Assembly: GCF_042242105.1 (NCBI RefSeq) | Contig: NC_092016.1 | Span: forward strand, 10,740,501-10,804,500 | DNA: 64,000 bases | Reading direction: 5' to 3' | From: Pempheris klunzingeri | Lineage: Eukaryota; Chordata; Actinopteri; Acropomatiformes; Pempheridae | Shown here: positions 5,735 to 60,277 of the stretch, in pieces | Position numbering within the stretch: position 1 is the stretch's first letter | Layout: each line of letters starts with the position of its first letter | Program-made: the position numbers and the translations under genes | The notes under the pieces: generated by a model | Database searches by the model: none | What the model saw: the letters and a program-made list of their open reading frames with translations, nothing else | Told to the model about the DNA's origin: nothing

Positions 5735-5960
5735 CAATGAGTCTATTAATCTTTTGGTGGATTGACAGAGAATGAATCAGCAACTATTTTGATATCGATC
5801 AATCCTTTGTACTATTGGTCGGACAATAATGGGTAATTTCCTTTACAATGTTATGACAATGTTCTTTTTATAGATTAAACAAAACATTTAATTGAGAAAT
5901 GAATAGAGAAAATAATCAGATTAATAGATAATAAAAATAATCATTAGTTGCCGCCCTAAT
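5735..5960. repeat. Interspersed repeat ending in a GATTAAT-rich tail, partial copy
   Basis: The segment contains short ATTAATCG-like motifs, a central part reading like 'attaaacaaaacatttaattgagaaa', and ends in 'taatcattagttgccgccctaa'. I recognise this end as a degenerate copy of a very common fish repeat whose consensus tail is 'aatcgttagttgcagcccta'. Compared with the copy at 13640-13866 it represents the other end of the element. It has no coding potential. Confidence 0.6.
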
Positions 5961-6880
5961 AAAATAATCATATTCTTTCAATGACTCTCAGAGCATTAAC
6001 AAAGATGTGCCCACTATAGGATATTATGTCATAGCAGAATTTAGATTTGAGGTGTTAGACTGCGGAAGATAAACACAAGTAAATCCAAAGTGAATCTGCT
6101 GCCTGTAAAATCTAACTTTAGGTGCATTAGTGCAAAATACAAAATGTAGCCTTCAGAAAAGCAGCATGTGTTCAAGTCATGATAATCAATCAACAGACAG
6201 TGTAATCTACAGAGCTGTGAACATCATACCCTGTGATTGATTAAGTTGTCTTAGGACAACCTTCCCGGTGTTTCATTCTTAATGCTTGACTTCCCCGCCA
6301 TGGCCACCATCTTGATTCCTACAAACATTACATCATCCTGCTTGTTGTCCTTCACTTGACCCCACGCTCAAGTGCTCAAATGGGGGGGAATAACATGAAC
6401 ATCAAGCCCTCCTTGATAATCGGCCAAAATTACAACGAAAGCTTTTTACTGTGGTATTAATAGCTCTAGACTGTATTTTTGGAATGGAAAATATTGTATG
6501 CGATGTTGGTTTAGTGCTACGTTTTCAGTCATCCTCGGCTGCTGATGGTGCTTACTGTCCAGGTCTCTCCTCCTGAGATAAATCATGCAGGAAAGTCAAT
6601 AGAGTTGTTGGGATTTATGTGGGTTTGAGTCTTCTCTCTTAAAATGATTTGTTGTAGATGAGGGACATGAGCCCGACCATAAAAACAATTGAGAAGCACA
6701 AGTCATTTTCTTCAAATCTTTCACCGACAACCAAGGTCTCTGCTGTTTGTAATCCTCAGCATCCTTTCAGAAATGAACAAGAGGGTATTTTATCCAAGTG
6801 TGTTACAGAGAGTTACAGGAAATCCATTTTAGGGCGTCTTGGCTTATGGGTATAATATAAAACTGAACAATTATTATTGG

Positions 6881-6881
6881 A

Positions 6882-6911
<30 letters not shown>
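6881..6911. repeat. (TAA)n microsatellite
   Basis: About ten perfect AAT units in a row, in intronic or intergenic AT-rich sequence. Confidence 0.95.
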
Positions 6912-6912
<1 letters not shown>

Positions 6913-9499
6913 TACTTTCCTGTTTTTTTAATGCTTTTGTCATAATTTCAAAAAGCTGGTAATGTTACAAATCACTGCTGCAGAGGCTGTAAAGTCAACA
7001 TATTGCTACAAGACGTATGGCACACGATAGTACTAGGTACACATAATGCAGAGTGCCTACAGTGACCTGCCATATGTCCTATCAGAGGACACATAGGCAG
7101 GCCTTGCTCCTGAGTCACAGCCTCCAGAAACACACTAAACATCTGCCATCCCCTCCGTACAGCCAGTGGGATCAAGCACGCAACCTTCACATGCATCACA
7201 CATGGCCAGCTCCTCCTCCTCAGTGTCACACACAAACCCCCTCCATCACCTCAAACCATCCCCCCGTGCTCATCATCTATAGGACAAAAAAAAAATCATC
7301 TATTTGACTCTATTCTTACATAACAGACCTGTCTCACCTAGAGAAAATCAGCTGCTGCCCCAATCACATTGCCTGCCCTCGTCCCCCCTTCTCCTCCTTC
7401 CAATAAGGCCTCCTACAGTGGTAGTCGTGATAAATCTCCTGCACCCACCCCCCGCGTTCTGTTCCTCCCTCCCTCCCTCCATCTCTTTCCACAGCCCTGG
7501 GTGGTGGTGCATCTCACTCAGGTTTGGCCCTCTGCTCCCACCCTCGTGCACCTCCAAGCCTTCATCACACGGGAACAATCTCCCTCTAACAGGCCCTGAA
7601 TATGCAGATTGGTTAATTCAGCTGCAGTTGCTCTCTCTCTGTAAATGCATCTGCAGCACTTTCCGAAGACTGAGCAGCGAATAAATGCTTACGCTGGGGC
7701 TTTTTTTTTGGTGGTGGTTAGGGGGAGTGCCTCTGTCCACGGCAGACTGCAGCCAAGAATGGGATTTCAGAAGTGGGATGGGGCAAGCAGAACTAATAAG
7801 AGATAAAGACTGTGACCAAGGTAAAGCTTAAGGCCCATTTGGTGACTGATCCGGATCTGTTAGAGAATAATTAATGTAATTGCGCTTTTGATCTTGGTTT
7901 TGTTGCATCTGGTCCTGCTGATACATTCTTAGTTTATTTGCAACTCACCTGGTTATAGCCTCTGCAGCAAACATTCCTTTAACATTTTCTAAAAAAGCTG
8001 AGAGGGCAGGAAAAATACTGCATTAAAAACAGATTTCCCAAAATCAAGGCACATGAAAAAGAAACAGCAACCCCAGTTTAGCATCCACACTGCAGCAGGG
8101 CTACAGTGTAGGTTTTGTGTGTGTAAAAGGAGTTTTTCCCATAATTGTGATGCAATGTAATGCACATAAGAAAAAGCTGCATATTCAGAAGCATCTCAAA
8201 GTTGATCTATATAAAAATATAAACAGCAAATACACCATATCCTCAGGAAAAAGATTTTTGTAGAGCAACAAATACAAGTCGCAGTGTGTTTGGATACGAG
8301 AGATTAGTGGTGTAAATAATACAGAGAATAAGATTTTGTGTAATACTAGAACAGATGGACGAATGCGTCTCCCCAAAGCATTAAAAAATACTGTAAAGGC
8401 TGCTGCTTTGAAATGGGACAAGATGTTGTTGATGAACGCAGAAAAATAACTTCTGCTTACACAAAGGCATCGGGTGCATAAAAGACTATAGTTTCCCCCT
8501 CCTCTCCATCTCTGTTGTGCTTTCTGCAGCCTTAGCACTAAAATCTGATTCAAGCTTTCTGTGAACAAGTGTGCTGCTTGCCAACACAAATGACAGTGGG
8601 AGTGGGCCAGGGGCCAAAGTCCTCCCCTGACTATCAAGAGAGAAAAGCAATCAAAAGAAGCAATCGATATAAACAAAGTCTTAACTACTATTGATTATTT
8701 AGCTCTATGCTGATGGGCAATGATAGTTATAGACCTAAATTCATACACTCAGTTGATTAATATCTTCAGTTTTTTTGTTGAAAAAGCCATTCGGGCGAGA
8801 ATTCTTGCTGTAACACGACCGCTGATGGTCCAACGGCTCAGAGGCAGTGTTGTGTCTGTTGTGACATTTTAGTAGGATGCAATGGAAACTGCTCCTCAGC
8901 TCAGCATCCTGCAGTCTCATCACTCACTGTAAGGCGGGCCGTTACTTCCATCAGCTGCATTTGAGTTTGGGCAAGTCAGCAAGTTTTCCTCTAGTGCACA
9001 CACAGCCTATACAAAAGAAATATACCATGGAAAAGCTTGGGAGGCTTTAGCTGAGCGCTCAGTCTCTGGTGAGATAGTGGCCTCTTGAGCCATTTGAAGC
9101 GTCCTCTGAGTGGCAGGCCATAAAGACAAATGACAGCGATGTGGTAAGTCACTCTCCATGACTTACAGAGCAGGAGAGGATATGAGAATACAGTTAGAGG
9201 ATGCTGCCTTTTCCATTCAGATGAAGGCTTATGATTGCTGTGCATGGCTCAAAATCAAGGCCACCGCTAATCTGTCAATCACAGCCTAAAAGCATCCACC
9301 TCCAGCGTATCACTGACAGGTTTGCTAGATGGGAGCTGAATGGTGATTGTGTAATTACTTTTGAAATGCAGGTCTTTTGTTCAGTCAGTCATGACAATTC
9401 TTTTTTTTTTTTGGCTGGGACAGTGACGTCAAATTGTTTTCAGCTATGCTGGTTGCACGGCTTAAGGGATGGCAACGTTAGTCTGACGGTCAGTTGATG

Positions 9500-10665
9500 C
9501 AACATTTTGGATCAGACTTAGATATTCCAACTATTGGATGGATTGTCATGACAATTTGTGCAGACTTAACAGACTGGTGATCCCCTGCCTTTTGATCTCT
9601 CACCAGCAGGTTCCCTTTTAATAATATACTGTATCTCAACAACTGGAGAATGTATTGCCATGAAGTTTGATACAGATATTCATTCTGCCCAGAGGATAAA
9701 TCCCAAAGACTTTGGTGATTCTCTGCCTTTTTGTTTAGTACCACCAAGTTTTCACTTATTCTATAAAATATCTTAACATCTCCTGAATGGACTGGCTTAA
9801 GCATTGGTAGAGAAATCCATGGTGCCCAGAGGATGTATCATATGGTTTTTTGTTTTGATTTGGTGATCCACTGACCTTTCCTCCAGAGCCACCATGAGGT
9901 TGACATGTATAGTTAAGAGTATTTATAGTTTTGTATTTTTCATTAGTTTTTGTTTCAATTTCATCTTTACTTTTTGTTTTCAATTCAGTTTAGTCTCTGT
10001 TAGTTTCCAGAGTCGGTTTGCTTGTTTCAGGTTTGTTCTTAGTATTTTAAAATGTTATTATAATTATATTATGATAACGTATTATGGTAATATATATGAT
10101 ATATTGAAATAAAAATACCATACTTGACTCCCAGTCATGTAGACATCCCATTACCTCCTCATACTTGTTATTATGACAGCTTTGACCAAGTTGAGAAAGA
10201 CTAATGCTGAAGACATTTCCTGTATATTATTATTATATCATTTCAACTAGCTTTGATTTTTTCTATAGCCTAGTTTTTCTTTTTATTCCAGTTAGCTAAA
10301 TGTTTTTTTTTTCACATCTAGTTTTAGTTTTTAGTTGAGTTTTAGTTAACTATACTGTTCTTGATATGGTTTTCAATGAGACAGTTACATCATTGTACAT
10401 TTACTACAATGATGTGTTACTTTACATCTGGCGCCACCATCAAGCCAAAAACTGAATGTGTCCAACTCTTCGTATCACGACCAAATACGTGCTGTGCTTT
10501 GTGTTTGTGTGAAGCAAATATATGCTAACACACTAAGCTAAGACGGCGAGCATGATGAACATCACAGCTGTTCCACATCAGCATGCTAGCATAGCCGTTA
10601 TGAGCATGTTAGCATGCAGCCTCACAGAGCTGTAAGCATGTCTGTAGACTCTTTAGTCTCATTAA
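9500..10665. repeat. Composite interspersed repeat with diverged tandem units, interrupted by an insertion
   Basis: The left part, about 9500-9905, is three diverged tandem units of roughly 125-140 bases. Each runs from a 'ggatggattgycatgaa'-like start through 'cccagaggat' and 'tttggtgat' to a 'ccaccat'-like end. The right part, about 10420-10665, resumes with 'ggcgccaccatcaagcc' and runs through the 'agcatgctagcat' and 'gagcatgttagcatgc' motifs and 'cctcacagagctgtaagcatg'. I recognise both parts as pieces of one abundant percomorph repeat. The interruption between them is annotated separately. There is no coding capacity. Confidence 0.7.
9907..10355. mobile_element. Small non-autonomous element with inverted ends, nested in the composite repeat
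   Basis: GTATAGTTAA at the left end (9907-9916) is matched by its exact reverse complement TTAACTATAC at the right end (10346-10355). The interior is T-rich and built of 'agttttagtttt'-like words on the right side. It splits the flanking composite repeat, so it is younger than that repeat. It has no open reading frame for a transposase. A MITE-like element is the simplest reading; exact target-site duplications were not resolved. Confidence 0.55.
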
Positions 10666-11394
10666 TAAATCAGCATGTCACACAGTGGCTTAAAGCTCTG
10701 TGACCGTGACACGCAGCACCACTAGGCTGAGAGTCGTTACTAACGCCGCAGTTAAAGATAATGTCACACGTAACTTAGAGGCATTCAAAACCCTTATGTA
10801 CACAAAAGCTTGAGCTACAACTGGTGACCAATACTTGTATCAATACTTCCAGCAGCTCAATGGTTTTGTGGCATCCCTTAATGAGATGGAGCATTTGAGC
10901 TGAATTCCCAGTCAGGTCATAGCTGAGCTGTCAACATGATATAATTCCCCTGAGGCTGAGGCCCTCCAGCAGTCTATTCCTCTGTCTGGAAACAACAAAG
11001 TACATGTGTGTATTACAGTTGTGTCTGCTTGGATTTATGCACATCAGAGCTGTGAATTTAAAACACTGCTTTGTGAATTAAAAAACCTCAGCAAAGTATA
11101 TTTCATGAGGATTTAGTGTGGCTATAAACGCAACAGAGAGTTTCACCTTGAACATTTCGGAACATATTGATGTATGTAAGGAGTGAGCAACTTGTTTTCT
11201 GCAACCTTGATACTCAAATCAAGTTTCCTCTTAGAAACAGAGTGAATCTTAATTCAGGTCAGGTATCATGTTACTTTGATATAGTGTGATCATGTATGGA
11301 AATGGAACTGGCTGTTTATGGTGGCTCATGAATCATGAATGCAAAACTTCAGCCTCTTTATGGAAGTTAACACATTTGTGTTGGGAAATACACT

Positions 11395-11770
11395 TGATCA
11401 ATTAGTTGACAAGAATTTTCTGAAAAGATAGATACCACTCTTCTGTTCGTGTGGTCAATATGAAGCAACAGCCAGTACCTTGTTAAGTTAGCTTGACACA
11501 AAGACTGGAAACAGCCTGTCTCTATCCAAAGGTGATACATGATATCATATTAGGTAATACGTTATATTTCCATGCAGCACCAATTAACACAATATTTGAT
11601 TTTGTTGATCTGTCCAAAAACCAAAGTATAAAACTAGTATAAAGGCATCATTACACTTAGGTTTTTTTATGGATTGAACAAGGCAAGACTAGTTGTTTCC
11701 AGCCTCTTTTCTAAATTAGTCTAACCAGCTGGTGGCTGTAGCTTCGTGTTTAGGAGACAAACATCAGGGT
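11395..11770. repeat. Percomorph SINE-like repeat, copy 1
   Basis: It contains in order 'ggaaatacacttgatca', 'gatagataccactctt', 'aatatgaagcaacagccag', 'ttagcttgacacaaagactg', 'gaaacagcctg' and further degenerate blocks. The same ordered blocks recur near 14770-14925, 35815-35915 and 51955-52310. I recognise the family as a widespread fish interspersed repeat. This copy may carry an internal insertion or expansion around 11540-11650. Confidence 0.65.
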
Positions 11771-12347
11771 GACGAGTGTATAATCCAAATGAAGATCATA
11801 TTTTTGGAGTTTGGTGCAACAAAGCCATTTCAGGACTGCCTCAAAATTACTGGAAACAAATGAATCATTTACCACCATTGTCTCTAAACTGTAAATGTGA
11901 ATCTGGGGTCTGTTTCACCCAATTTGCAAGCAGCATTTTGTACCGTTTGCACCCTATTGCGTTGATTTAGACAAATTTTGCTAATCAAAGCAAACCCCAT
12001 ACTTGCAGCCCATGCATGAGATTGCAAGAGCTCTATAGGACTCGTTAAATTATCTGCAATTTGCAAGAGATGAGCATTTGTGAAATGTGCTTTGTGCAAC
12101 CTTTTTGGATTTGGTTGTGGTTAGAAAAGTCCTGCCAGACAATTCGCTGTCCCACATAACACCTGCAATACCGAAGGGACCTTTTTGAATCTGTCACCAG
12201 TCGGGCCTTTCAGCAATATCCAGATGTACCTGATGTCAGGTTGCTGACTTGTTTGTTCTGTACATTTTGTTCATTAATTACAGTGTCTATGGTCAGGTGA
12301 TCCAGCTCATTAATGCACTGTGTTTGCCTTTGAGTCAGTTTACTTAC

Positions 12348-12489
12348 ATTGGAGTCTAGAAGATCAATGCTGTCCAGACTCTTGCTCCTGTGAATGCGAC
12401 CCTTGATGCGGCGGAGTGATGGCTTGCCCTGAATGGTGCTCGCTGAGGAGGCTGCTGTGATGGAGCCAGCAGTTGGGCTGGGGTGTATC
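12348..12489 (-). CDS. tjp1: Shared 5' coding exon of the tjp1 (ZO-1)-like gene, 47 codons
   Basis: This internal exon has a strong acceptor (long pyrimidine tract, then cag) and a consensus donor, AAT followed by gtaagt. Its first base completes a codon split 2+1, then 47 codons follow, ending in phase 0. The peptide begins IHPSPTAGSITAASS and continues with the basic, serine-rich stretch SLRRIKGRIHRSKSLDSIDLL, probably a disordered phosphorylated region. Both candidate upstream exons (28310-28421 and 20036-20133) end in phase 2 and join it without breaking the frame. A phase-0 exit suits the following ZO-1 exon as I remember it, but that exon is outside the window. Assignment to tjp1 rests on recalled ZO-1 long-isoform sequence and on apba2 as a neighbour; the exon itself is much better supported than its name. 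Confidence 0.62.

Positions 12490-19983: not shown

Positions 19984-20013
<30 letters not shown>
19984..20013. repeat. (ATC)n microsatellite beside a poly-T tract
   Basis: About nine ATC units, preceded at 19953-19971 by a C run and a long T run. It lies just 3' of the donor of the alternative first exon on the minus strand, inside the intron. Confidence 0.9.
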
Positions 20014-20015
<2 letters not shown>

Positions 20016-20035: not shown

Positions 20036-20133
20036 CACATACGCTTCCTGGGTGGAAGACAATGTTCTTTGTTGGAGGCGGTCACCCCCAAAGCCAGCTG
20101 CATTACAGTAATGTATTTCTGGTAATTCACCAT
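20036..20133 (-). CDS. tjp1: Alternative first coding exon of the tjp1-like gene (short isoform)
   Basis: ATG at 20131-20133 sits in a strong Kozak context (accATGg). It opens 32 codons, MVNYQKYITVMQLALGVTAS then NKEHCLPPRKRM, followed by TG and a perfect gtgagt donor. Joined to the exon at 12348-12489 it reads through as ...RKRM-W-IHPSP. Upstream the frame stays open to about 20283 with further in-frame ATGs; that extension would add a hydrophobic stretch (ITCAFLWVGFLVAV), and I prefer the Kozak ATG. Beginning inside the intron of the longer transcript, it implies an internal promoter, consistent with the GC-richer sequence at 20200-20680. I recall a similar N-terminus from ZO-1 isoforms but cannot verify it. 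Confidence 0.6.
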
Positions 20134-28309: not shown

Positions 28310-28421
28310 CTGGAGTCAAACACAGGGTCGGTGTACATGGGAGGGGGGCACAGAGGTTGCTCTCCTGGAGTCTTTGGGGGCACCGGGGGCCCCCCTTTTC
28401 TGCCTTGTGCTGGGGCACCAT
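28310..28421 (-). CDS. tjp1: Proline-rich internal exon of the long tjp1-like isoform
   Basis: The acceptor is ttcctacag and the donor gtgagagc. The 112 bases read in phase as GAPAQGRKGGPPVPPKTPGE then QPLCPPPMYTDPVFDS. It enters at phase 1, as the CARD exon (29066) requires, and leaves at phase 2, as the exon at 12348-12489 requires. The motif GPPVPPKTP is a likely SH3-binding peptide of class PxxPxK. No other frame is open with these splice sites. The exon is well supported; assigning it to ZO-1 is inference. Confidence 0.65.
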
Positions 28422-29065
28422 CTGTAGGAACAGAATAAGATATTAGTTACTTTTTAAGTTCCTCTTAATTTACACTTCTTCCCCTCTGAGTATATAAGTA
28501 AGCAAGAGGATTCACAGGGTCTTAATTGTGGGATATTAGCCACAGATGAGGCAGACACTCACTGAGCTGTGAGCACGAGTCATTTTCTTGAGAGTACTCA
28601 GTTTTATGTAAATGTAAGTAAAACATATTGATTTGGAAAAGAGCAGCACAGACAAGGCCCTGCAGACTGCAGCCACGTTGAGGCCATATGTTGTCAGAGG
28701 CTAGTTAGGATCGCTGGCAGCTCAGTAATCCCCTCAGCCATCCAGATTTAAGAAGCTATTTTTGCTGGCTCTTAGTCTGCAGCTCTGGCTTATTGCAAAG
28801 TAGTTTTCTTCCCTTTATATTGTTTTTTGTTTTCAATTTGCCACAAAAAATTAAATGCAACACCAGATAAGTGAAAACACTGGACAAATAAATGGGAAGC
28901 AATAACAAATCAATGAGCTGTAACTGAGCTCTGTTCTTTTAAATGCACACTGAAGTGTTTTTTTGTTTTTTAAAAAGAACATTAGCACGAGGACACACTG
29001 CCCTCTATGACCTTTATTTTTTGTGTTTGTCATTTATGTAATTAGTGGCTAAGCAATGGCTGTAC
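28422..29065. other. Intron between the CARD-like exon and the proline-rich exon
   Basis: AT-rich sequence with no recognisable feature beyond the flanking splice signals. Confidence 0.6.
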
Positions 29066-29632
29066 CTTCTCCATCCAACAGAAAGCAGGTTAGCAGGTGG
29101 GGACACACTTCCTCCAAAACGGAGCAGAATGAGCAGAATGCAGCAGGCCCCTTGGAGGACAGCTGATCCAAGAATATCTCCGACCGTTTTTTGCTGGAAT
29201 CCTGTCCCAGTATTTCTTTGTACTCCCCCAGTGAGAAAACCTTATCATACACCAGGTAGGGAAGTACGGTGTTGACATCCAGCTCACTCAGGATCTTTTG
29301 TCGGTGCTGTTTGAGGATCTTGGCTGACCATCTCCTTTTCTTCCTGGTGCATGGCCTCCTGCCAGGCCTGTGCTGCTGCTTCTTCTGTTTCTTCACAAAC
29401 CACTTCTTGGTGCCGCTGCCAAACATCTTCACGTTGAGGAGAACCACCAAAACGTCTTCCACTGCTCTGTCAACACAGTTCCCAAAGGAAGGGAGGTGCA
29501 TATTTCATGCCAGTGAGGCGACCATGCCACATATTTCCTCGAGCCTCACTTTGTTGTTGTCTGAGTCGCTTATCTGGGGCAGGAAGAGACAATCTGGACA
29601 GTAGCTGATTTCTAGCTGGGTACTTACTGACA
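29066..29632 (-). CDS. CARD-containing 5' exon upstream of the tjp1-like gene
   Basis: The open frame from ATG 29499-29501 to the donor (GAAG, then gtacag) gives about 145 residues. A basic segment (FVKKQKKQQHRP, RKKRRW) is followed by about 85 residues with the pattern of a caspase recruitment domain: LKQHRQKILSELDVNTVLPY, then LVYDKVFSLGEYKEIL, KRSEIFLDQLSSKGPAAF and VLEEVCPHLLTCFL. These match CARD helices H1-H6, including the RxxxLLDxLxxKGxxAF core. The exon leaves in phase 1 and joins the 28310-28421 exon exactly. The 5' boundary is uncertain. Coding-like sequence (SDSDNNKVRLEEICGMVASL) continues upstream in the same frame to an acceptor near 29574 or 29633, but a TGA at 29505-29507 interrupts it. 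Translation may start at 29501, or at ATG 29421-29423, or the exon may begin at an internal acceptor near 29452. It could also belong to a separate CARD gene, but the phase-perfect chain argues against that. Confidence 0.6.
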
Positions 29633-35412: not shown

Positions 35413-38400
35413 TTAGAAGTTCTCATAGTGATGCATAAAATGGGCCTGATCCCTCTTGTTCATCTGCTGACAAGCTTTCTCCACATTCTTGGTCAGTCCA
35501 GGTGGTCCACAGCTGAATACGCCGATTTTACCCACCTACAGACAAGAATACAAATGTAGAAGTTAGCATAATTGGCTCATTGTGTCCAGGCTGGTGTTCT
35601 GTGTTAAGTTTCAGACGTGACTGACCTCGGGGTGAACTTCCTGCAGTGAGCTGAAAAAGGAAACGAAGGGTGGACGGCCGAAGTGGGTGATAGACCGCAA
35701 GCCAGTGAAGAGACTGCGGTTCCACACCTTCTGAAAGTGGCGCTCACACACATACTGTCCGCACATTACATAGACAATGGCGAGAACTTGTTAGTGGTTT
35801 TCATTGTAATCTAGTATTTAAAAGGAACAGTTTAATGAGAAGATCAATAACATTCAGATCTGCATGCTAAATATGAATCTAAAGCTAGCAGCTGGTTAGC
35901 TTAGCTTGGCCTGAAGATGAAAGTGGACATTTAAGACTACAGGTCTCACCAGCATGGTGGTGCGGAGGTCGAACTTCTCGGCCACCTGAGTGATATAAGT
36001 GTGGACGCAGAGCAGCTCCTGGGTGTCCATCTCCTCCACCTCCCTGATGATGTCTGACACCCACTCAAACTGACGCTGTGTTCGTGTCACCCAGATGAAG
36101 TACACCTTTGAATAAGCAGTGACTGTTAGCAAGGGATGTTTGTCTTTATTGGATAGTGACAGTGGAGAGGGGAATAACGTGCAACTGCTGGAACCTGTAA
36201 CCACTGAGCTACCAAGGAGCTCTAAGAGATGTAATTGACTGTATTGCACAAATATGCACTGGTTGTTAGATTGTAAACAGCACCTTTTTACACTGAATCT
36301 TGGACCTGATGGAGGACTTGAACACCAGGTCTTTTAGGATGGAGGCGAATGGGGTGACTCCGATTCCTCCTCCCACCAGAACAGACACGTCAAAGTCAAT
36401 CCACTCCTGATGTCCCTCACCAAACGGGCCATCCAAGTACAGCTTAGGATGAAATGAAGTATTAATATAAGTGTTATGAACAAGACAAAGAGTGGAGATG
36501 CAGATGAAACACACACAACTGTGCTTTAACCTGCCTTTGGATAGGCTCCAAGCTGCAGCAGGCTTTCTTCTGTGTACAGCTCTCGGAGCTGGCTGGTCCA
36601 GGGCCCCACAGCTCGGATGTGCAGGCTTAAGGTCTCTTCGTGCGGGGCTGATGTCAGTGTGAATGGGTGGTACTCATCTGTGCCCAACATCAGGCATGCA
36701 ATGCGAACCCACTGGCCTGAACGGTACACAAAGCCCTGTGGTCGCTTGAACTCCAGATGCGTCACACCTACAGGTAGGACAGCCAGGGGAGGTGTGAACT
36801 CGAATGCACAGTGCGCACAAACATTGCAGGATTTCAGTGAAGATGATGGAAAAGTGCAACACAATTAGCAAAGACTGAAGTCAAGGAGACACAGAGACAC
36901 ATTTTCAAGACTCCATCCACTGTGAATGATTTTCCAGGATATGCAAAGTGTCACCTGAAGGCAGCAGCTCAGCTCTGAGCACAGGGATCTCCAACTTCTT
37001 CCTGCTCAAGCTAATTAGTTTGTCCAGCAGGAAAATCAGGGTGGGTGGGATTAAGTAAATGTAGAAACGGGGCTGTTGAAGCAGGGCAAAACTGCCATGA
37101 ATAACCGTCTGTTGGATGAAAACAAAACCAGCATTATATGTTTGTAAAACTGCTTCCCATCATGAAAGCCACTTAACTGCAGGGGGAATTTGGCATATTT
37201 TAAAGTCAGAAAAGTACTTACTAGAGTGTAGACAATAACGTAGAGGTAATGTGTGATCCAAAATGCACGAAAACTGATGCGGCGGAAATAGTGTGAGGCA
37301 AAAACATACATGAATGAAAAGGTAAAAAGAAGCAAGACACCAGTCATTCCTGGGAAAAGGAGACAAAGCAGAGAAAAAAACAGAGTTAAGCATAATAGGA
37401 CATGCAGCCCATGTACCACTGAAGGTCTGAAGTCAGTTTCCTGTGATACCTGGAACAGTTTGAAAGAACCACCACGACCACTTCAGAGGAAGTTCAGACC
37501 TAAAACGAAAACACACTGTAAATCAGTGACGATAACTCCCTACAAAGTATACAGTTATCTGCTAAAAATCTGTCAGATGTTTCAAACATTACCCATTGTT
37601 GGAAAAGACTTTGGGGAACAGACAAGACAGGATGCTGAGGTCGCTGATGGAGAAGATGTAGATGTTGACCACGTGCCCCAAACTATGAACAACTACAGTC
37701 AGAACAGAACTAGTTAGAGTGAGATCACAGAAATAAAATGTAAACAGCTGAAGACATCAGAACTTTCCACCCCATCATTACTCTCTCCTCTGTTTTGCCA
37801 ACCTGCCAGGATAATGGCCGTCATGGCCATGAAGCGATGGAAATCGATGGCAGCGTCAAAGGGGATGTATCGGTTGAGGAAGGTTTCTCGTAACACTGTG
37901 ATGATGTTGCGACTCACGGTGAGGAGCATGTATGGGAAGAGGAAAGAGACGGCGGCTGCTGAGCCACGGGAGACAACGATGCCCACCACTGAAGTCTCGG
38001 GGACACCCGTAGATTCGGCCTGCACAGCGTAGTCTGAAAACAAGGTTTTTAATCTGTGCCAAAGTGTCACATCAGAGTGAAAGAAAAGTACCATGCAGCA
38101 GGTAAAGAGGGACTATAGCACATTAACATGACGTAGTGAGGAAGCAGAACATGGGGAAGAGTGATTTCTACTCACAGTAACATCTTTCAAGTGCCACGCC
38201 TGCCGCAATGCCGTACACGATGATGAAGCAGACGATATGGCGCCGATAATTCTCAATGAAACGTTTGAAGTGCTGGATCTTCTGCTTTACTGGGTTCCTT
38301 ATGTACTGCTCACGCTTAGGCTTCACATAGACATTAGGAGTGTTGACACCAAACCTGAAAACATTCAAATCCATTAGACTTCAGTGTCAGAGTCGGTGAT

Positions 38401-38805
38401 ATTGTTTGTTCTCTCTATCATTTAGCCGTTGAATTTTTGTTCACACTCAAGTCACCCAAACTACAGGAAATAGGGTGTGATACTTTTGTTGTCAAACATC
38501 TTATCTCGGTATTCCTTATCCTTCTTCCAGTAAGTATTTTCCAGGAAGAGAAAAAAACAAAAACAAGGACCAAACTTTTTCCTCCTGCGTATCTCTTGTC
38601 CATCTGTCTTGGCGCTGCTGCAAACAAAAAATGAAGAAAAGATTGTAAGCTGGGAAACAAAGGGATCAAGCAACAGGCGTTACATTTGTGATTTGGATGA
38701 GTGATTACAGCCGGTGTGTCCTGTTCTCTCACCTGTTTGCTGGACAAATGAAGGACACTCTCTGGTCTCGACGCAACCGCTTCTTACCCTGGTTCTCCAT
38801 CCCTG

Positions 38806-38855
<50 letters not shown>

Positions 38856-41363
38856 GCCACACTTACTCATCAGACAAGGTCAAAGATATGAGGATTAAAA
38901 AAGATCTTCTTAGAAAAAACTTTCTTCAACCTTTGACATTGAGTTGTGCAAACTGCAGCTCCTTCTCGTGGTCCCGCAGGAGGAAATGGAAGTCCTCCCA
39001 TGTGATTTTCTCCTTGTCATCAAAGCCCGCAGCCTGCATCATGGCCTTGATGCCGTCCTCTGCTTGGCTCTTTGAAAGAGCACCGTTTGAGATTTCAATC
39101 AAAGACCTGCAGCACATCAAAAGGGCAAAGATGAAGAATTAGACTGAAAAGAAATGGAGTCATGAAAAAATAAAGAAAACTCAATCAAACCTGAGCATTC
39201 TGGAAAATTCCTCTTTTGATAAGAAGCCAGTTCCACCAATGTCATTCATGGAGAACATCAGTTTGGATTTTTCCTCAGGAGACCCTGGTCAAACACACAT
39301 CATCATGAACATAATGTAAGATTAGACTAATGCTGTGTATTGGTTTATGTAGTGCTTCGATGACAGCACACGTAAATAAGCAGACCAGTCACTGTCCATT
39401 GGAGTGGTATATTTTACCTTTCATAAAAATAACCATCACATCAAGAAACTCTTGGAAGGAGAGGTAACCGTTTCCATCTTTATCAGCTAGTGTGAACATG
39501 GAGTCCACAAATAAGGAGTCAGGTTTGAGCCCCAGTGCTTCAGCAAACTCAGACGCTGCCAGCTCGCACTGGAGGACCTCTTTGGCTTTCTTGCTGGAAA
39601 CGCCACTCATGTCCCCAGCGTCACGCTTCTCTATTTCCAAGACCTATGCAACAGAGAGACAGTGCCATTACACACTAAATCACCATAGTGTCACTAGTGA
39701 TATCACAGACGTTAACTGAGGTTACTGTATGTCCATCATGGATGATGTCACCATCAAGACTAACAATTAGTTCCTTTGGCTGGAGGTCAGACCTAGTTTG
39801 ACCTCAAACAAGGATTGACGACATTTTGCGGCTTAAAGCTTAAAGCTGCTGCCGCTGCAACAGAGCAGAGGATGAGGTAAACATCCAGAGGCTGACGGTA
39901 CCTTAGAGAAAGCATGTCGAATGAAAGTTTCCACAATCTGAGCCCTCTGCTCTCTGGTTAAAGCCTCCTTCAGCAGTTCCTCCTCTCTCATCTCCTTCAC
40001 TCTAATCTCCTGCCCGATGTCAGTCACCCCGAGGCGCAGATGCATGACAAATGCTGCACGTTTGCTCTCGTCATCAAAAAACAGCACCTGGATGTGCAAA
40101 CAGGACGCATCAGGAGAAGATTAACAGGATTAGTGGGAGATAAAAGTGATGTAGATGAGGAATATCTGCAGAATCATGCTTCCATTAACAATTTGATGAG
40201 AGTAGAAGCAACTTGTGGACAATCTTAAATGTGAACAGAATTTGGTTGTATGTGTTTACACAATACGCTGCAGCAGCAACATTTTTAGCATTTTTCCAAC
40301 AACTTTTTCAGATCAAGAGCCTGAAGGTAGAAACCATCCCCTGCGGTTTCCAGCTACTCACCAGGTCGTACTCTTTCGCTGCTTTGAGCAGCAGAGCTTT
40401 ATGGTGCCGGTCGTTGGAGAGAACGACATTGAGGTAGTCCTGGTTGCCCAGATTGAAGCAGCGTTGAGTGGACCCAGATCTGTCGAAGACCTGCAGCCTG
40501 CTCTTCTCATCGACCTCCACACTGACAGGATGCAGAGGTTTTTTATGGCCCTGCCACTCCTGGGCTGCAGAGCAAAAGCAGAGTGTGAAGAAGTCAGGTG
40601 AGAAATACCAGGAACCACCATTTTGGTTTCATAGTCATCTGTGAATAACTCATTAACAGTAGAGTTTGCAAGCAGATGTAGTTTTTATAATGACTTTAAT
40701 GTCAACTATCAGTTGAGTTTTAGAGCTGGCATTAATCTAGAAATGGCTACATCACTGGTATCCTCCCGTCCTGACCCTTAAATCCATATAATCAGCTCAG
40801 TTTTACAATTGTTACATAATGGTTGATGAAGGCCAGCGTGGCAGTAAACCATCATTTACACCAACACTGGACTCTGCAAATAAAGTAGGTTTTTTTTTTT
40901 TATCCCACAGATTTCATACCAGTGATTCCCACGGCTGGTTCCTCTGCTTTGGCACCAGCTTTTGTCCTTCTCTGGAACTTCCTGTACCTGTACTTGCGGA
41001 AGTACGCCACCATACAGGCCACTAGAAAACTAACTGTGAAAGCAAAGAAATCAAGCCTGATTATCATTTTCACAACAAAACTGCTGGTCTCAGTATCGTT
41101 GCTGTGCAAAAAGAGATGGATTTATGAGCATAACACTGACCGACAGGAAAGAGGAACAGAACAATGATAAATATCCCAAAGCCAGCTTTGCTTCCATCAA
41201 AGTAATTAAGTTGGGTCGCATTAGTGCAGGGATGGAGCATTGATGCATTCAGCTGTGTGGGTTGAGGACAAGGGTCACCTAAGGAAACAGAGAGGCTGTT
41301 TGTTTAAATACTACATCACCAATTTGAAATCAATCATCATTTCCCCTCGGGGATTAATAAAGT

Positions 41364-41399
<36 letters not shown>

Positions 41400-44300
41400 A
41401 AATAAGTCATGAAATAATTCTTACCATCCTTCCAGAAGAACACATTGTTCTGTATATCAGTGGCTTCTGCACTTGTGACTGCAATAAGGACGTCATGAAA
41501 GGTCACATTGCTGATCACCTGGATCTCCTCATCTGTGAACAAACTGGAAAACACCTCAAAGTACACAACTGTAGGATGTGAGTGTGAATGCTGTTACCCT
41601 CGCAGACAGTAACATGAGATCAATCGCACTGACAGTACAGTAGGATTAGATACTATGACGACTATTTCTGTTTTCACAGTCCTTTAGGTAGGAGCTCACC
41701 CATTCTGTCTGTTCTCGAACCAGAAGCGGTCTCCGTTTCTAATGCGTACAAACTGGTCCAGGATTATGGTGGAGAACACTGAACCTGGCCCATCAGTCTT
41801 AGACTCCAGCAGTCCTCCAGGGAAGAGCTCCAGTTTTGAGATGTCTCCGTTGTACAGCTCTGCAACGTCGCGGAGCAACTGTTGGAGCGGCACACAAGAC
41901 ACACTTTAAGTCAAGGGATTGCTGTTAAACTTTTTTATGCACCTCATGCATAATCATTATTATTTGAAGACATTTTGTCTTAGCAGACTCTGGGTTTTAC
42001 CTGTGGGTTTGTGCTGTTGAGTTCAGAATTGATTTCTTCAAATGTCTTGACAGAAGGCAGACCCAGAGCATTTCTGACCTCATTGTAACTACGCAGGCCA
42101 AAGTCTCTTCCTCTTTGGATGGTCATGGCCACCAGATCCCTCCGGGTGAACCTTAGGGGTCCGTACATGTAGTCTGCCGGGGGGCAAATCAGATCAGAGC
42201 AATGAATATTAGTTTATAGGTTGAATAAGTCTTGATGAATGATATTACAAATCTGTGATTGCTTGACCTTTGTGGAACTTGTGTTTTCTCTTACTTTGTA
42301 TACTTATGAATGTTATGCACTATGAAACAAAGGCAAATTTTCTACACAGACAGTGTAGAAAAAGCATTAAACACCTCTCAGGTCCTCCACCACAATATTG
42401 TCCGTCCTCTCTGCAATCTGGGAAGCCATGCCCATCAGGAGGTCGTCTACGTCTCGGCTTGTCTTAACGTTGAGTTTCTGGAAACAAAATGACAAAAGCA
42501 TTAATATATAATATGCAGATTAATTCCTCACATTTCTCTCCTCTCTAACTGGTGGCATCAAGGAGACCATAAGGCTTGATAGGCTGTCTACGAACGTCCT
42601 ATATTTCAGTCCCACGAGAATTTTGCTTTTCTCTACAGAAACAAATGTGAAGTGATTTGTAGTTAAAACAACGCTAACACACATTTCCACAAATGACCCC
42701 ATTTGTGTTCAGAGAGTGGTTTACTTTCCTGCCGCTGAAGCCAAAGATCCTGGCTCAGATCCTGCCAGATCTGCTGTTCTCTCTCTGTACTTTTCCGCTG
42801 TCTCCATAAATAAACAATTGTACTAAATGTGGCTTCCCTGCCTAGTCTCACTTTAAAAGAAAATCATTAAAGGAAATCAAAATGAATGTAATGCACAGTA
42901 TTTAAATGAGCATACCAGTTAGTTCACCATCAAATTGTGAAACTGCAGATGTATGATATACCTGTCGTTTCCAAAAGCTGTTACAAAGACGCATTGCTGG
43001 TGATAAGCTGCCATCTATGTTGACAACCTTCCGGAAATGGCAGGTTCTGTTTCTGTAGGGAAAAGCAGAGCCAGTGCGGAGGATTTTATTTCTTATAATA
43101 ATGTACATATTCTATTTCAGATGGTTCACAGAAGCACAGTGACAATATCACACTCAACTAAAGCCCACTAAACATAATCAGCCTTGAATTTTCAAAATGT
43201 GCAGCTGGAAAAACAGAACAGTACCTCATATAGACACCAGGTGGGGCCATAGTGATGCCAAATCGCATGGCAGCAGCCTCAAATTCAGGAGAGATCCCCG
43301 GATCAACAAACTTCTGGTAACCTGTGCACAGATAGATCAGAACATAATGCAGAGCGATAGCTGAACAAAATAAAATTTCAGCTGAATCAGAAGAAAATCC
43401 TCATGCATTAAAGCTACCTATATCATCATCCAAATGGTCGAAATGAGGCTATAAAAGCAGTACAGTAATGAAAATGAAGAGTGATTAAGGCCCTTAGTCC
43501 CTTTAACTTTCTTCAGCTGTGGCTGCTTATTCAGCAGAAGAAGGAGACTCTGGGTGATGCTTTGCTGACGGAGCACATACTTGTCAAACACCACCAGCGA
43601 TAGCTCACCTCACCACGGCTTGTGGTCACCAGTGCATTACCTGTTCCCCTCCACTTGTACGCACACGCACTCTGGATGATTCTTACCTGGATAAGGAGGA
43701 ACCTTTTTGACTCCAAGATATCCAGGCAGCCATTCGTAGAAAGCAATATTCTATGGAGAAAAATAGGAGGAATAAAAGTAATTGCAGCTTGTTTGAATGC
43801 ACACTAACATTGTACATGTTGTATAATATACTCTTTAAGCTGATTTTTTTTGTCTTGCATTTTCCTTATTTTATGATTGTAGCTTTGTATTTTGTATTTT
43901 ACGTGTCAAAATAAATGTTATATGGCCAAAATTGTTTTCAATAGAGGTAAAAAACTAATTAACGTGTGTATAATGTTGTTCTTGCAGAGGACGGCCTAAT
44001 CAAACAAGTGAGAGATGATGCATTCGCCCTTAAACTAAAACCAGCAATTTCATCCATAAAATCACGACCACCTGGTGTTGATGCAACCTCGTTGGTTCCA
44101 GAGTGCAAATTAAATCAGCACCTGTGCAGCGAGGGGATTACATGGAGACTTTTCCTTCTACCTGGAATGTGGCCACAACGGTCTTCCTGGCATTTTGAAA
44201 CAGCTTTTCGTCTGACCAGTCTGGGTGTTCCTCATGCAGTTTGGAGGCTACATAATTGTGGTAGCGAAACCAGATAATCCCCTCTGCTGCTGTGAACACG

Positions 44301-46967
44301 TTCTCATTGGCCCAGGCGTTTCCCAACACTGGAGACACAGAGGATGGCACAAATTATAGGGAATTCTGCCATTCCACGATGTGAATTAACATTACTATAG
44401 CTACACCTCCATAAATAGAGAATAGGCTGTACATGTAACATTTGTTATATAGAAGATTACCCCAAAATGCAGATATATTCTGCACTTCATCTGTTTAGTG
44501 TCACACTCCTATTGCATTGATTGATGAGTATCTCTGACCACTAACGGAAAGATAATTTGGCTGGTTGTTTTTAAAGACGTGACAACAGAGCGGTGACAAC
44601 AGGAGAAGATCCTCCTCCTCCGCCCCAGATAATAACTACACACCTTTAACAACACAAGCAACAAAACACTGGTTTCATGACGCCTGCACGGCATCCTCTA
44701 TGCTATAGAGAGAGGGATTTACTGCGGTGAGCGTGACAAGCCATTTACACAATAATTAACGAGTCATATCACACGTCAGGCAGCGCCTCTTTTGACTCAA
44801 CTGCAACCCTGTTCAAAGCAGACTTTGGTGAAATAACATTTGCAAGAAATTCTTGCTGTTTGTTTTTCGGCAGCTTGCAGTATCGACTGGGTGGGTATTG
44901 CCACACACAGTGTAAAAAAAAAAAAAGTTATGACACCAGATTGTTTAAAACTATATTTGAGCCAAACACACAGTGAAACATATTTAATATCCTACCTGTG
45001 GTGAAATATATGCAGGCAGATACTTTTAGTGTGATTTTGTGAGATTTGGAGGTCTGTTATATATGATTGCAACTAGTTTCTGGGGCTCAAAATGCAAAAA
45101 AAAATTACATCTGAAAACGTCCACATATAATGACCTCATTTCCCTGAAAATTACTGAGAAGTAATGTCCACCGCCAGAGCTGCGGATTATTGCAAACAAC
45201 TGTGTCATTCTATTTGGGAAGAAACATTACTGCTGAGTTTTGGGGCTTAAAACACCATAAATTAAATGGCACTGAGAGCCACTGTTTTGGGTTCAGCTCT
45301 AGCCAACAATTCTTCAATAAAAGTAATGAGAAGTTGTGTTTGACTGTGTTTTTTAGTGAACTTTAATCAATGACTTACAGTAGGAATCAGTTCAGTGCAA
45401 CTTTCTGCAACTAACAGCTCCCCTGACACGTTTATAAGATGCTCCTGATGATATAAACCCCAGTGCTTGGGACGATCACATGAGTTCTTTGTGAACAATG
45501 TTTGGTCAGATCTAAAGTACACATTAATAAATGTCTCACCATAAAGGCCTTGGGGTCCATGATCTCCTGTAGAGGGGTCAGCAGCGCTCCACATGAAATC
45601 ACGTCCTGTAACCTGGTTTGGCATGTTCCACTCAGAGCCTGAAGTCAAGAGCCCTCCAAAGAAGCTTCTCAGGGAGTCAGACCAGGACGCCGAGGGGCCA
45701 TAAATGGAGCTGCCATCTATCCACGCTGTCACCAAGTTGACCTGCATTTGTTTTTTTTTTTCAAATTGTTGTATTTCAAGAAAAGGAAATGTGGGGTAAT
45801 ATAATATAAAGTGCCCTCCATTAACAAACATGTTCATATCGATGAGAGTCAATAATCAGCACCTGTGTGCGAGGGTTACTGGGACTCTGGCCGGACTCTT
45901 TGTCCCATGGTCCCCTCTGGAAGGGAAGCAGGACTTTTCCGGTGGCACTGGGGTCAAAGACGGGGTCGCCTTTAGGGACATGGATGTTCATGAACTCAGG
46001 TGGACACCCGGGAGTTCTCGAGTCAAAAATTTCAAAAGTAACATGATAACCTGAGGAATAAAAATGTTTAAAAGTTATTGCTACAAAAAAAAAACGTCCA
46101 TTTAGATCTTGAATTTTTAGCCCTCTTTTTAAGAAAAAAATCATTCATTTGGTTTTTGTTCTGCTGGGAATGAAATGCTAAACCACAAACACAAGTAAGT
46201 TTAGATGAATATCATGACATATAACTGATTATTATCAGGCAGCATCAGCTTCAAAAGCAACATCTGACTCAATATCATTTTAAATGGTAATAAAAGGCCG
46301 ATTTTGTACAATGCATGTTTAAATTTCTTGGAGTTGGTCATTTAATTAATCCTTTTCATAAGCAACAGTAAAAGTATCACCTTAAAAACTAGCACCTGTG
46401 TTGAGTCTGCAGTTTATTGTCAGTGTACTTCAATGCACTCCCCAGTATATTTACCAAAGAACAGGGAGAGCACGGTCTGGTTGCGTGCTGAGGGCAGACC
46501 GGAGGGTCCCCCTGACAGCAGGCTGCTCAGTCTGCGAGGGTTTGGCAGCAGCGGCTCCTGCACAGGTTGGTAGACACCGTCCCGGTAATGCGCGGGCACG
46601 AGGCGCACAAGGTGAGAACCTGCGCGAGCACAAACACAGTCCGATAACCAGCTGCTGTTGGCAGGCTGAGCTGCTGCTGCTGCTGAGCTGCTGCACACTT
46701 TGGCAACTGTGTGACTTACCGACAGCTCCGCGCCGGGGAGATCCCAGACTGTTGTACCAGCCGTCAAAACGGGGAACCTCCCAGGTTATTTCACAGCGGG
46801 AATCTGTTAAAGACACGTCGAGCTTCTTACTGTAAATGTCTACGTTAATTCAGTGTAAACTCCCTGAATATTAAAAAGCAAAATACTGCTGCCTGCTTAC
46901 ATTCACAGACACTGATCACCAAGCCAACCGCTGCACAGATACTCCAAACCCATTTACGCAAATCCAT
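35413..46967 (-). CDS. duox: Dual oxidase (DUOX), 33 coding exons
   Basis: DUOX is a membrane NADPH oxidase that releases hydrogen peroxide for thyroid hormone synthesis and mucosal defence. Domains in order: signal peptide ([18 protein letters not shown]); peroxidase-like ectodomain (about 25-590; [12 protein letters not shown]); first membrane segment; calcium-binding region with two EF-hands (about 830-885; [26 protein letters not shown]); ferric reductase membrane domain with haem histidines ([23 protein letters not shown]); FAD motif HPFT; NADPH motifs ([18 protein letters not shown]); and the family C-terminus HHYENF. Exons: 46901-46967, 46720-46803, 46455-46619, 45863-46050, 45540-45741, 44162-44328, 43687-43751, 43225-43321, 42962-43052, 42375-42477, 42001-42173, 41700-41878, 41425-41543, 41141-41278, 40920-41033, 40362-40564, 39902-40087, 39418-39643, 39191-39284, 38931-39106, 38733-38802, 38576-38617, 38176-38354, 37803-38033, 37593-37692, 37450-37499, 37222-37349, 36955-37108, 36535-36767, 36284-36442, 35950-36105, 35626-35754, 35413-35535. 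Phases agree throughout except coding exon 7, which holds one surplus base; without it the protein is 1529 residues. Confidence 0.97.
35815..35915. repeat. Percomorph SINE-like repeat, fragment in a duox intron
   Basis: 'gagaagatcaataac', 'gctaaatatgaatctaaagctagc' and 'agctggttagcttagcttgg' match the front blocks of the family seen at 11395 and 51955. It lies in the intron before coding exon 31. Confidence 0.6.
38809..38852. repeat. (AC)n microsatellite abutting a duox splice acceptor
   Basis: About 21 perfect AC units, reading (GT)n on the coding strand. They end six bases before the acceptor of the duox exon 38733-38802, taking the place of a normal pyrimidine tract. Confidence 0.95.
41340..41399 (+). 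mobile_element. Retroposon 3' tail with (GATT)n in a duox intron
   Basis: 'cccctcggggattaataaagt' followed by seven TGAT units matches the typical 3' end of fish LINE/SINE elements ('ccctcgggatcaataaagt' plus a tetranucleotide run). Only the tail is present, in the intron between exons 41141-41278 and 41425-41543. Confidence 0.6.
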
Positions 46968-48059: not shown

Positions 48060-50144
48060 ATGACTTTCTACGATGACATTTACCCATTCTACCCTCTACA
48101 AAGGACCTCCTTCATCTTCAATGGCCAGTTGCTCACCATTATTCTGGTCTTCCTTGTGATAGCAGTGAGTCTTCTTCTCATTCTGCCGGGAATACGAGGG
48201 AAGTCGGTGAGTGCAACCCATCAGATAAACTATTACTCACTGCAATCATATCACACAAGCTCATGATTACTGGCTCCCTCTGTGCTTGTTAGGATGGTTC
48301 TTGAATGTGCAAAATAAAAACACGCTGCATTTCAATGCTTTAATTTAATTGCCCTCGCTTTTTTATTCAATGCATCTGAATTAATTTAGATTTTGCTCCT
48401 TCCCTCCCCATCAGAGGCTGTTCTGGATGTTTAGGATAATTATCAGCTTGTTCATCGGCATAGTGATAGTGGGTGAGTTTTGTATTCTTATCATTGTTGC
48501 TGAATTCATCACAATTTCTCCTTTTCCTGTCATTCATCATTCATCACCATATGCGTCCTCTTACTCTGCAGCGCTCAACTTCACGAACGACTGGGCCGAG
48601 GCCAGAATGACCACAAATGCCACGTACAAGTCTTTCAGCGACGCAGTGGTTAACGCTGAGATCGGCTTGCATGTTGGACTGTACGGCATTAATGTTACAC
48701 TAAAAGGTGAGGCTGCAGCTGCTGTTATGTGCAGATTTGTGTATAATACACCATACGCTGGTAGCTTTACTGTTCACAAGTTAGATTTTTGATTCAGATG
48801 CTCACTCAATAATCTCATAAAATACTCTGTTATAAAGTATAAATAAAAACTCAGTTTCTTGAATGGCTAAATACATTTTGGGTGCATCTGTCTTAGTGTA
48901 TGTATGTAAATTTACCCCCTCTTTTCTCTCTTAGGGAATCCTGTCATACAGCTCAATGAAACCATTGACTACAATGAGATCTTCAGCTGGCATGACACAA
49001 TGGAAAAGCAGTATGAGGATGCTCTGGAGAAAGGCTTACCCAACCCCATCCTGTACATCGCTGAGAAATTCACCCTGAGCAGCACATGTGGTCTCATCTT
49101 TCAGTACAGATACTCTGGAAAATACGCTTCTGCAACCCTCTGGTAACAATGATTAACCACATACAGTTTGAAGTTGTATTAATACACTGTCAGTTTTAGC
49201 AGATGGTTGTTTGAAGTAGTGGAAATTAAAATGGCTGCACACTTTCACAGGACGGCGTTTTGCTGCTGGATGCTCGCCAATATCCTTTTCACCATGCCAG
49301 TCATTCTGTATGCCGGGTACATGATGTTGGCCACCGCCGCCTTCATCTTCTTCTCCATGGCCTCCTTCTCCACCATCATGAACGTGCCACAGTGTGTTTT
49401 CTCCATTGGGACCAACTCCTTTGAAACCATGTACAGCCATTCGTTCTGGCTGGCTCTGGTTACAGGTGAGCATAAGAAGCTCCACATTCATTTCACATGT
49501 TTTGTACTTAAACCTGGCACACAGAGCCTGCGGGAGTGTGGTGAATTCTACTAACTGAAGATGATTTTCAGGCGTGCTGTGCACCATCATTGGGGTCCTG
49601 GTGGTGATGCTTAACATTTTGATACCGGAGAGGATAAGAGAGGCCTTCAGCGTTGGCGTCGAAAGTTACGAAGATGAGGACGGTTTTTACGGGGAGGGCT
49701 ATCTGAATACAGTTTTCCTTGATGGAGTGACAATTTCACCACTGACATCAAAAGTCAAGGCGGTAAGTTGGTGACACAGAGAGGATCAATTTTCCTTTCA
49801 ACACATTAGCAATCATCAAAGAAATATTTTGCTGCGTGTAAATGGATTTGCCACTCATTTACAAGCAGCAACAGTACATTGGTCATAGTCCTCTTATGAA
49901 TTTTTTGGGAAACATGACTTTGATATACATTTATTGTTGCAAAATACATATTCAGCTCTATGAGACATTTGAAAAGTGTGACCAATGCATTATTAGTATG
50001 GGATGCAGGAAAGAAAAAAAAAAAGAATATCTCTGCTATTTTGGCAGCATGTACTTCCCTTATGTTCATTTAAATAAGTTATTTCCACCTTTGCTGCTCG
50101 TTGACTGTGATCATTTTGTCTCTGTGTTTTAGGAACATATATGA
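48060..50144 (+). CDS. duoxa: Dual oxidase maturation factor (DUOXA), 7 coding exons
   Basis: DUOXA is an ER-to-surface membrane partner needed for DUOX folding, glycosylation, export and peroxide output. Exons: 48060-48206, 48415-48472, 48572-48706, 48935-49142, 49251-49465, 49572-49762, 50133-50144. All phases agree, giving 321 residues. The start [12 protein letters not shown] is followed by membrane segments near 20-42 ([20 protein letters not shown]) and 52-69 ([12 protein letters not shown]). A lumenal loop carries four N-glycosylation sequons (NFT, NAT, NVT, NET) and the family motif [15 protein letters not shown]. Three further hydrophobic segments follow ([46 protein letters not shown]) and an acidic tail [12 protein letters not shown]. 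An upstream in-frame ATG at 47859 lies in the leader intron, so I chose 48060. The last exon adds only EHI, making the C-terminus short; an alternative 3' end is possible. Confidence 0.95.
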
Positions 50145-57014: not shown

Positions 57015-57045
57015 AACAGGCCCTCTAAGCCCACTACCCTCAAGC

Positions 57046-59565: not shown

Positions 59566-60277
59566 TGTAGAAAATACACCCCCATCATGTGCTCACTGCT
59601 CTGTCCCTCAACAAATAACACAGAGGGTGGCATAATGAGTAGCCCACATAGTCAAATATACGCCTTAAGAGCTGACCTACAGCAATGGCTTTTATATTTA
59701 ACAGTGTAGCGAAGTGTAATTTAGGATGTAAAGGAGTAGTTTGTGTGTTTTGAATTATATCGCAATTAACTTAAAATTTTGACCATTTATTTGTATATAT
59801 TTTTAAAGTAAAAAAAAAAAAAAATCTATATATATACACGTAAATATTCTACCTCTAGAACAATATCTATGATTTATTTTAAATCAGCTTTTTGCATTTA
59901 GGTAGTTGCTGAAATATCGATGTATCTTGGATCGATTACTCCATCCTTAAATGTATTCTGAGCTCTGTTGGTTACGCCTGAAAAGCGGGAGCGTTATTAA
60001 CATGACGCTCTTCGGTCGCCGGTATGATCTCAACCATTAAGAGTATCTATGGTAATGTTTTGGTTTTTTCTAGTGCATTTTAACGCGAAAAAATGCCGCA
60101 GACGTGTATGAATTTAAAAGGAGGAGTTTCTGTCTGAGCTAAGTTAGCATTTAAGTTAGCCAAACAGGGTTTTAGCATTATATATCCTGTCCACGGCGAT
60201 AATTGTCCTCCGAGTATGCAACAGAGAAAAGCTTCTAAAAAACGTTTTCATCGAGAAACACCTCCTCCGCCTGCATC
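59566..60277. promoter_or_regulatory. Divergent apba2/fan1 intergenic region
   Basis: The two genes start back to back with about 0.7 kb between them. The fan1 side has CpG-containing sequence (ttcggtcgccggtatg near 60010) and no TATA box, as expected for a housekeeping repair gene. The centre is AT-rich with a long A run near 59810. Confidence 0.5.

Follow-up and report, generated by a model that had tools for sequence, protein, structure and literature searches.

The 64,000-nucleotide stretch of Pempheris klunzingeri DNA analysed here (assembly GCF_042242105.1, contig NC_092016.1, positions 10,740,501 to 10,804,500; the window) carries on its minus strand what we take, with a probability of about 0.9, to be the 5' end of tjp1, the ZO-1 gene, in the form of an orthologue of the zebrafish isoform ZO1b-Alpha. 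A CARD, a phase-compatible chain of exons and a Beta first exon are present, and the first exons are orthologous to those of the zebrafish isoforms. The gene is probably the teleost tjp1b, or possibly tjp1a. A preliminary description of this DNA had proposed an alternative N-terminus joined in phase to the 5' region of tjp1, and this agrees with the layout of zebrafish tjp1b. The same description regarded the isoform as undescribed, which is rejected, as the same CARD-bearing isoform, ZO1b-Alpha, is published in zebrafish (available part of PMC10703405). A CARD-bearing form of ZO-1 is thus already known, and the locus in the window is most likely its orthologue.

The CARD exon

The coding part of exon 1-Alpha (29066..29501, minus strand) begins with the ATG at 29501, ends at a donor after 29066 (AAG/GTACAG) and leaves in phase 1. 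It encodes, in this order, an N-terminal segment resembling zebrafish MLLSVFGG..VEEVLAGLLKLK, a basic stretch and the CARD. The feature had been extended upstream to 29632, which is too far, as an in-frame stop lies directly ahead of ATG 29501; an untranslated leader of the exon may be located upstream of this ATG. The domain itself was claimed as a true CARD, and the profile hidden Markov model check bears this out: the stretch matched by Pfam PF00619 (about 29094..29321, minus strand) scored 49.9 bits with an E-value of 3.3e-13, against a curated cut-off of 23.9. This match is far beyond chance. The structure model predicted for the domain is likewise a helical death-fold bundle and matches solved CARDs. 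An NCBIfam profile search and tRNA and Rfam scans gave no match.

A strongly basic segment (29322-29426, minus strand) separates the N-terminal segment from the CARD. Residues 26-60 of exon 1-Alpha contain 14 lysines or arginines and no aspartate or glutamate, and the stretch may aid the binding of membrane or acidic partners. The guide sequence used for zebrafish Alpha likewise reads basic in one of its frames, as the peptide SGRRNKR.

Past the donor of exon 1-Alpha, the frame continues for five further codons (GTAIA) to a stop, so that its end reads GEGTAIA, and an AATAAA is found at 29018 on the minus strand, about 48 bases beyond the end of the exon. If the donor were skipped and the transcript ended at this signal, a CARD-only protein would result, a free CARD that might act as a decoy and coexist with the ZO-1 fusion. 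The open frame, the AATAAA and the rank of the donor (297 of 3912, see below) would fit such a product, but AATAAA or ATTAAA occurs 30 times on the same strand over the 16.6 kb between 29065 and 12490, so that a nearby one is weak evidence. Also, the quantitative polymerase chain reaction primers used in zebrafish cover exon 1-Alpha to exon 2 (PMC10703405, in the part available). The CARD-only protein is considered quite improbable.

Exon chain and splice sites

In the favoured reading as the 5' end of tjp1, exon 1-Alpha is followed by the Alpha-specific exon 2 (28310..28421, minus strand), which encodes DGAPAQGRKGGPPVPPKTPGEQPLCPPPMYTDPVFDS and has phase 1 at its entry and phase 2 at its exit. 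It is bordered by the acceptor ...TTCCTACAG and the donor CAG/GTGAGA, and encodes a proline-rich linker containing PxxPxK, which we take to be an SH3-ligand-like motif. The next exon (12348..12489, minus strand) encodes IHPSPTAGSITAASSASTIQGKPSLRRIKGRIHRSKSLDSIDLLDSN, can be entered in phase 2 by both Alpha and Beta and leaves in phase 0 at the donor AAT/GTAAGT. It is taken as the zebrafish exon 3, an assignment made by order and phase only. The coding part of exon 1-Beta (20036..20133, minus strand) encodes MVNYQKYITVMQLALGVTASNKEHCLPPRKRM(W) and ends in phase 2 at the donor GTG/GTGAGT. As exon 1-Beta and exon 2 both leave in phase 2, either first-exon path can enter 12489. About 8.9 kb separate exon 1-Alpha from exon 1-Beta, which lies downstream of it. 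A GAT simple repeat (19984-20014, minus strand) lies just within the intron after exon 1-Beta.

Splice sites were ranked with scoring matrices among all 3912 GT and 4156 AG sites of the minus strand. The donors of exon 2, exon 1-Beta, the exon ending at 12348 and exon 1-Alpha ranked 6, 14, 48 and 297, respectively, and the acceptors of exon 2 and of 12489 ranked 53 and 142. When open internal-exon candidates leading from phase 1 to phase 2 were counted with both site scores at least 9, three were obtained on the minus strand of the 64 kb, exon 2 among them, and none on the plus strand. The exon coordinates and phases proposed earlier (CARD exon end at 29066, 28421-28310 and 12489-12348) were all right. 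The accompanying argument, by which chance would hardly produce three phase-compatible junctions, is too strong when used alone, given three such candidates on one strand. Splice sites and phase are by themselves not decisive for the chain; it is accepted because it agrees with the zebrafish gene, and this is the deciding point. The joins 29066-28421 and 28310-12489 are predicted from sequence.

Comparison with zebrafish tjp1b

According to the available part of PMC10703405, zebrafish tjp1b has three first exons, Alpha, Beta and Gamma. ZO1b-Alpha carries a CARD followed by exons 2, 3 and 4, and ZO1b-Beta uses exons 3 and 4; exons 3 and 4 are thus common to Alpha and Beta, and exon 5 is common to all isoforms. 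No domain could be identified in the parts unique to Beta and Gamma. ZO1b-Alpha (ENSDART00000173656) is 2005 amino acids long, its CARD is reported there, and it has an isoform mutant of its own, line b1429, and was tried in cells, where Cx34.1 was bound by it after transfection. In alpha mutants, Connexin and ZO1 staining was unaffected at Mauthner synapses.

The zebrafish Alpha N-terminus, MLLSVFGGPVEEVLAGLLKLK, was read from oligonucleotides printed in the accessible text of PMC10703405. When it was aligned to every ATG-started open 26-codon peptide in the window, 722 in all, the peptide from ATG 29501 was the best with a score of 32.5, the runner-up having 20.5, and none of 5000 shuffles equalled this fit. 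The zebrafish Beta start is 38/40 bases identical to the window at 20130; it was taken from a donor oligonucleotide printed in the accessible text of PMC10703405, in which designed changes are possible. Alpha is longer than Beta by 150 amino acids here and by 152 amino acids in zebrafish. By order and phase, Alpha has an exon 2 of its own here and further downstream an exon in common with Beta. The two genes therefore have in common an alternative CARD first exon, an own exon 2, Beta-shared exons, a matching N-terminus and a near-equal extra length; they differ in that the species is another one and that the core exons were not found in the window. Nowhere in the window is the guide sequence for zebrafish Alpha matched with fewer than 7/23 mismatches; therefore, the locus is not zebrafish tjp1b itself.

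A CARD gene or pseudogene located upstream of tjp1 by chance, outside it, would also account for the domain. In its favour are the prediction of all joins from sequence and the distance of about 8.9 kb between the CARD exon and exon 1-Beta. Against it stand the annotated Alpha transcript of zebrafish tjp1b, whose first exon has the matching start and the CARD (PMC10703405, part available), and an open exon 2 whose splice sites are strong and whose phases fit. This explanation is regarded as hardly credible.

Several observations weigh against assigning the feature to a ZO-1 Alpha isoform. A search of the window with the human ZO-1 N-terminus, which may miss very short exons, gave no PDZ1 exon; among the matches listed, none was better than an E-value of 0.18, and the best two lie in a PDZ-coding region near 53 kb. 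No convincing exon 4 was found in 1-12347 among candidates of 120-417 bases that enter and leave in phase 0 with an acceptor score of at least 4 and a donor score above 4. With neither exon found, the window does not show the connection to the PDZ-SH3-GUK-ZU5 core of ZO-1. Also, the donor of exon 1-Alpha is mediocre, and the zebrafish Alpha forward primer, which matches at 14/17 bases at 29119 in the CARD exon, has another site in the window that equals it. For the primers of zebrafish Alpha exon 2 and Beta exon 3, the window offers no convincing ungapped match (6/20 and 5/18 mismatches at best, respectively, all elsewhere), which may come from divergence of such short primers between species. 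In the zebrafish work, exons 1 and 2 of the Alpha clone were taken from genomic DNA (PMC10703405, part available). Finally, the CARD partner and the clustering considered below are proposals only. A candidate for exon 4 at 5450-5304, a single weak match at site thresholds of 4, was unsupported and was discarded.

Affinity of the Alpha CARD

The Alpha CARD was compared with 13 human CARD sequences, CARD14 being left out, by phmmer bits and by a shuffle score. RAIDD was the most similar with 23.7 bits, followed by caspase-2 (20.1), ICEBERG (19.8), DLG5 (18.8), Apaf-1 (17.6), CARD9 (15.9), caspase-9 (15.1), CARD11 (9.0), caspase-1 (8.9), BCL10 (6.7), CARD10 (6.3), NOD1 (4.1) and ASC (3.2). By shuffle score, RAIDD was again first (14.1) and DLG5 second (13.2), and RAIDD was top-ranked in a further CARD comparison too. 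RAIDD is an adaptor of apoptosis and caspase-2 a caspase; although their CARDs have the highest phmmer similarity among those compared, both proteins are without a MAGUK core. Human DLG5 and the Alpha CARD share 26/88 aligned residues. DLG5 is a MAGUK reported with a CARD (PMC1978500, as far as available), but it belongs to another MAGUK class.

In a tree of 14 CARD rows, which has long branches and 8/11 of its inner branches open, CARD9, CARD10 and CARD11 formed a group (100/99) without the Alpha CARD. DLG5 was paired with Apaf-1 (83/78) and not with the Alpha CARD, and ZO1-Alpha was unplaced. ZO1-Alpha, DLG5, CARD9, CARD10 and CARD11 stood together on one side of a branch in 1% of 200 bootstrap trees. 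The tree speaks against the CARD having an origin shared among MAGUKs, but too weakly to exclude one.

The preliminary description had linked the domain to the CARMA family (CARD10, CARD11, CARD14) as a BCL10-nucleating CARD, in which case the isoform would seed BCL10-MALT1 filaments at tight junctions in CARMA fashion. CARMA proteins do pair a CARD with a MAGUK core, and their CARDs and that of CARD9 have the same fold. However, the sequence of the Alpha CARD is not closest to CARD9, CARD10 or CARD11; CARD11 and CARD10 were 8th and 11th of the 13, with bits close to those of BCL10 and far under those of RAIDD and DLG5, and the tree group of CARD9, CARD10 and CARD11 excludes it. Unlike in CARMA, the Alpha CARD is followed by a proline-rich exon, and no coiled coil was noticed by eye through the end of 12348. 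A BCL10 or NF-kB test is not reported in the available part of PMC10703405. The claim is unsupported and a CARMA-like isoform is judged very unlikely; there is no specific pointer to BCL10 as a partner, and BCL10 nucleation is possible.

According to the part of PMC2859873 available, ZO proteins are grouped with CARMA, both being sister to DLG5, and a sponge MAGUK carries CARD, PDZ, SH3 and GUK, which its authors consider the ancestral form. Because of this kinship and the sponge protein, an old shared CARD is a fair hypothesis, although the comparisons made here lend it no support and are too weak to reject it. In its full form, the Alpha CARD would be an old trait common to the MAGUKs of the DLG5, ZO and CARMA groups that ZO-1 retained behind a promoter of its own, a subset of epithelial ZO-1 would assemble through CARD contacts, and junctions would be platforms for a CARD-dependent signal; taken together, this is rather unlikely.

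Neighbouring genes

Pieces of exons of a dual oxidase, presumably duox, are spread over 36529-45855 on the minus strand. An animal haem peroxidase domain (43.5 bits) was found there at 45370-45855 and a FAD-binding domain (55.7 bits) at 36529-36864, as well as a ferric reductase piece at 37054-37482, below the cut-off. The pieces 40311-40628 and 39836-40120 had no profile match. A dual oxidase maturation factor gene, duoxa (49183-49551, plus strand; Pfam DuoxA, 72.2 bits), adjoins duox in opposite orientation. Exon pieces of an APBA-like adaptor, which we take to be apba2, occupy 52657-55187 on the minus strand, with PID matches of 37.2 and 21.7 bits and a PDZ match of 50.8 bits; human APBA2 is, we assume, also near TJP1. 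A long frame at 55698-57071 had no Pfam match. On the plus strand, a long open frame at 60239-61513 resembles the FAN1 nuclease, with a FAN1_HTH score of 18.6 bits that stays under the cut-off of 27, and is presumably FAN1.

Proposed role and significance

Exon 1-Alpha would be spliced via the proline-rich exon 2 into the Beta-used exon and give a full ZO-1 scaffold with an N-terminal CARD, provided that the host species uses the Alpha promoter and splicing runs on into exons 4 and 5. Promoter choice would then set which of the ZO-1 molecules at epithelial junctions bear the CARD. Homotypic contacts of the Alpha CARD, either between copies of it or with a different CARD protein, could lead to clustering of ZO-1 or to recruitment of a partner; such a clustering role is put forward tentatively, at somewhat less than even odds.

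In the open-licence literature, a CARD isoform of ZO-1 was found reported in PMC10703405 (zebrafish; part available) only, and a word search of the main text of the human death-domain survey PMC8564539 gave neither TJP1 nor ZO-1. The window, by its sequence only, supports the exon layout of zebrafish ZO-1 Alpha in another species. Since the start, the phases and the length agree, the CARD isoform appears to have been maintained. CARDs are better known from signalling in cell death and inflammation. The interest of the locus is modest and centred on the role of its CARD, including a possible link of the junction to cell-death or inflammatory signalling.
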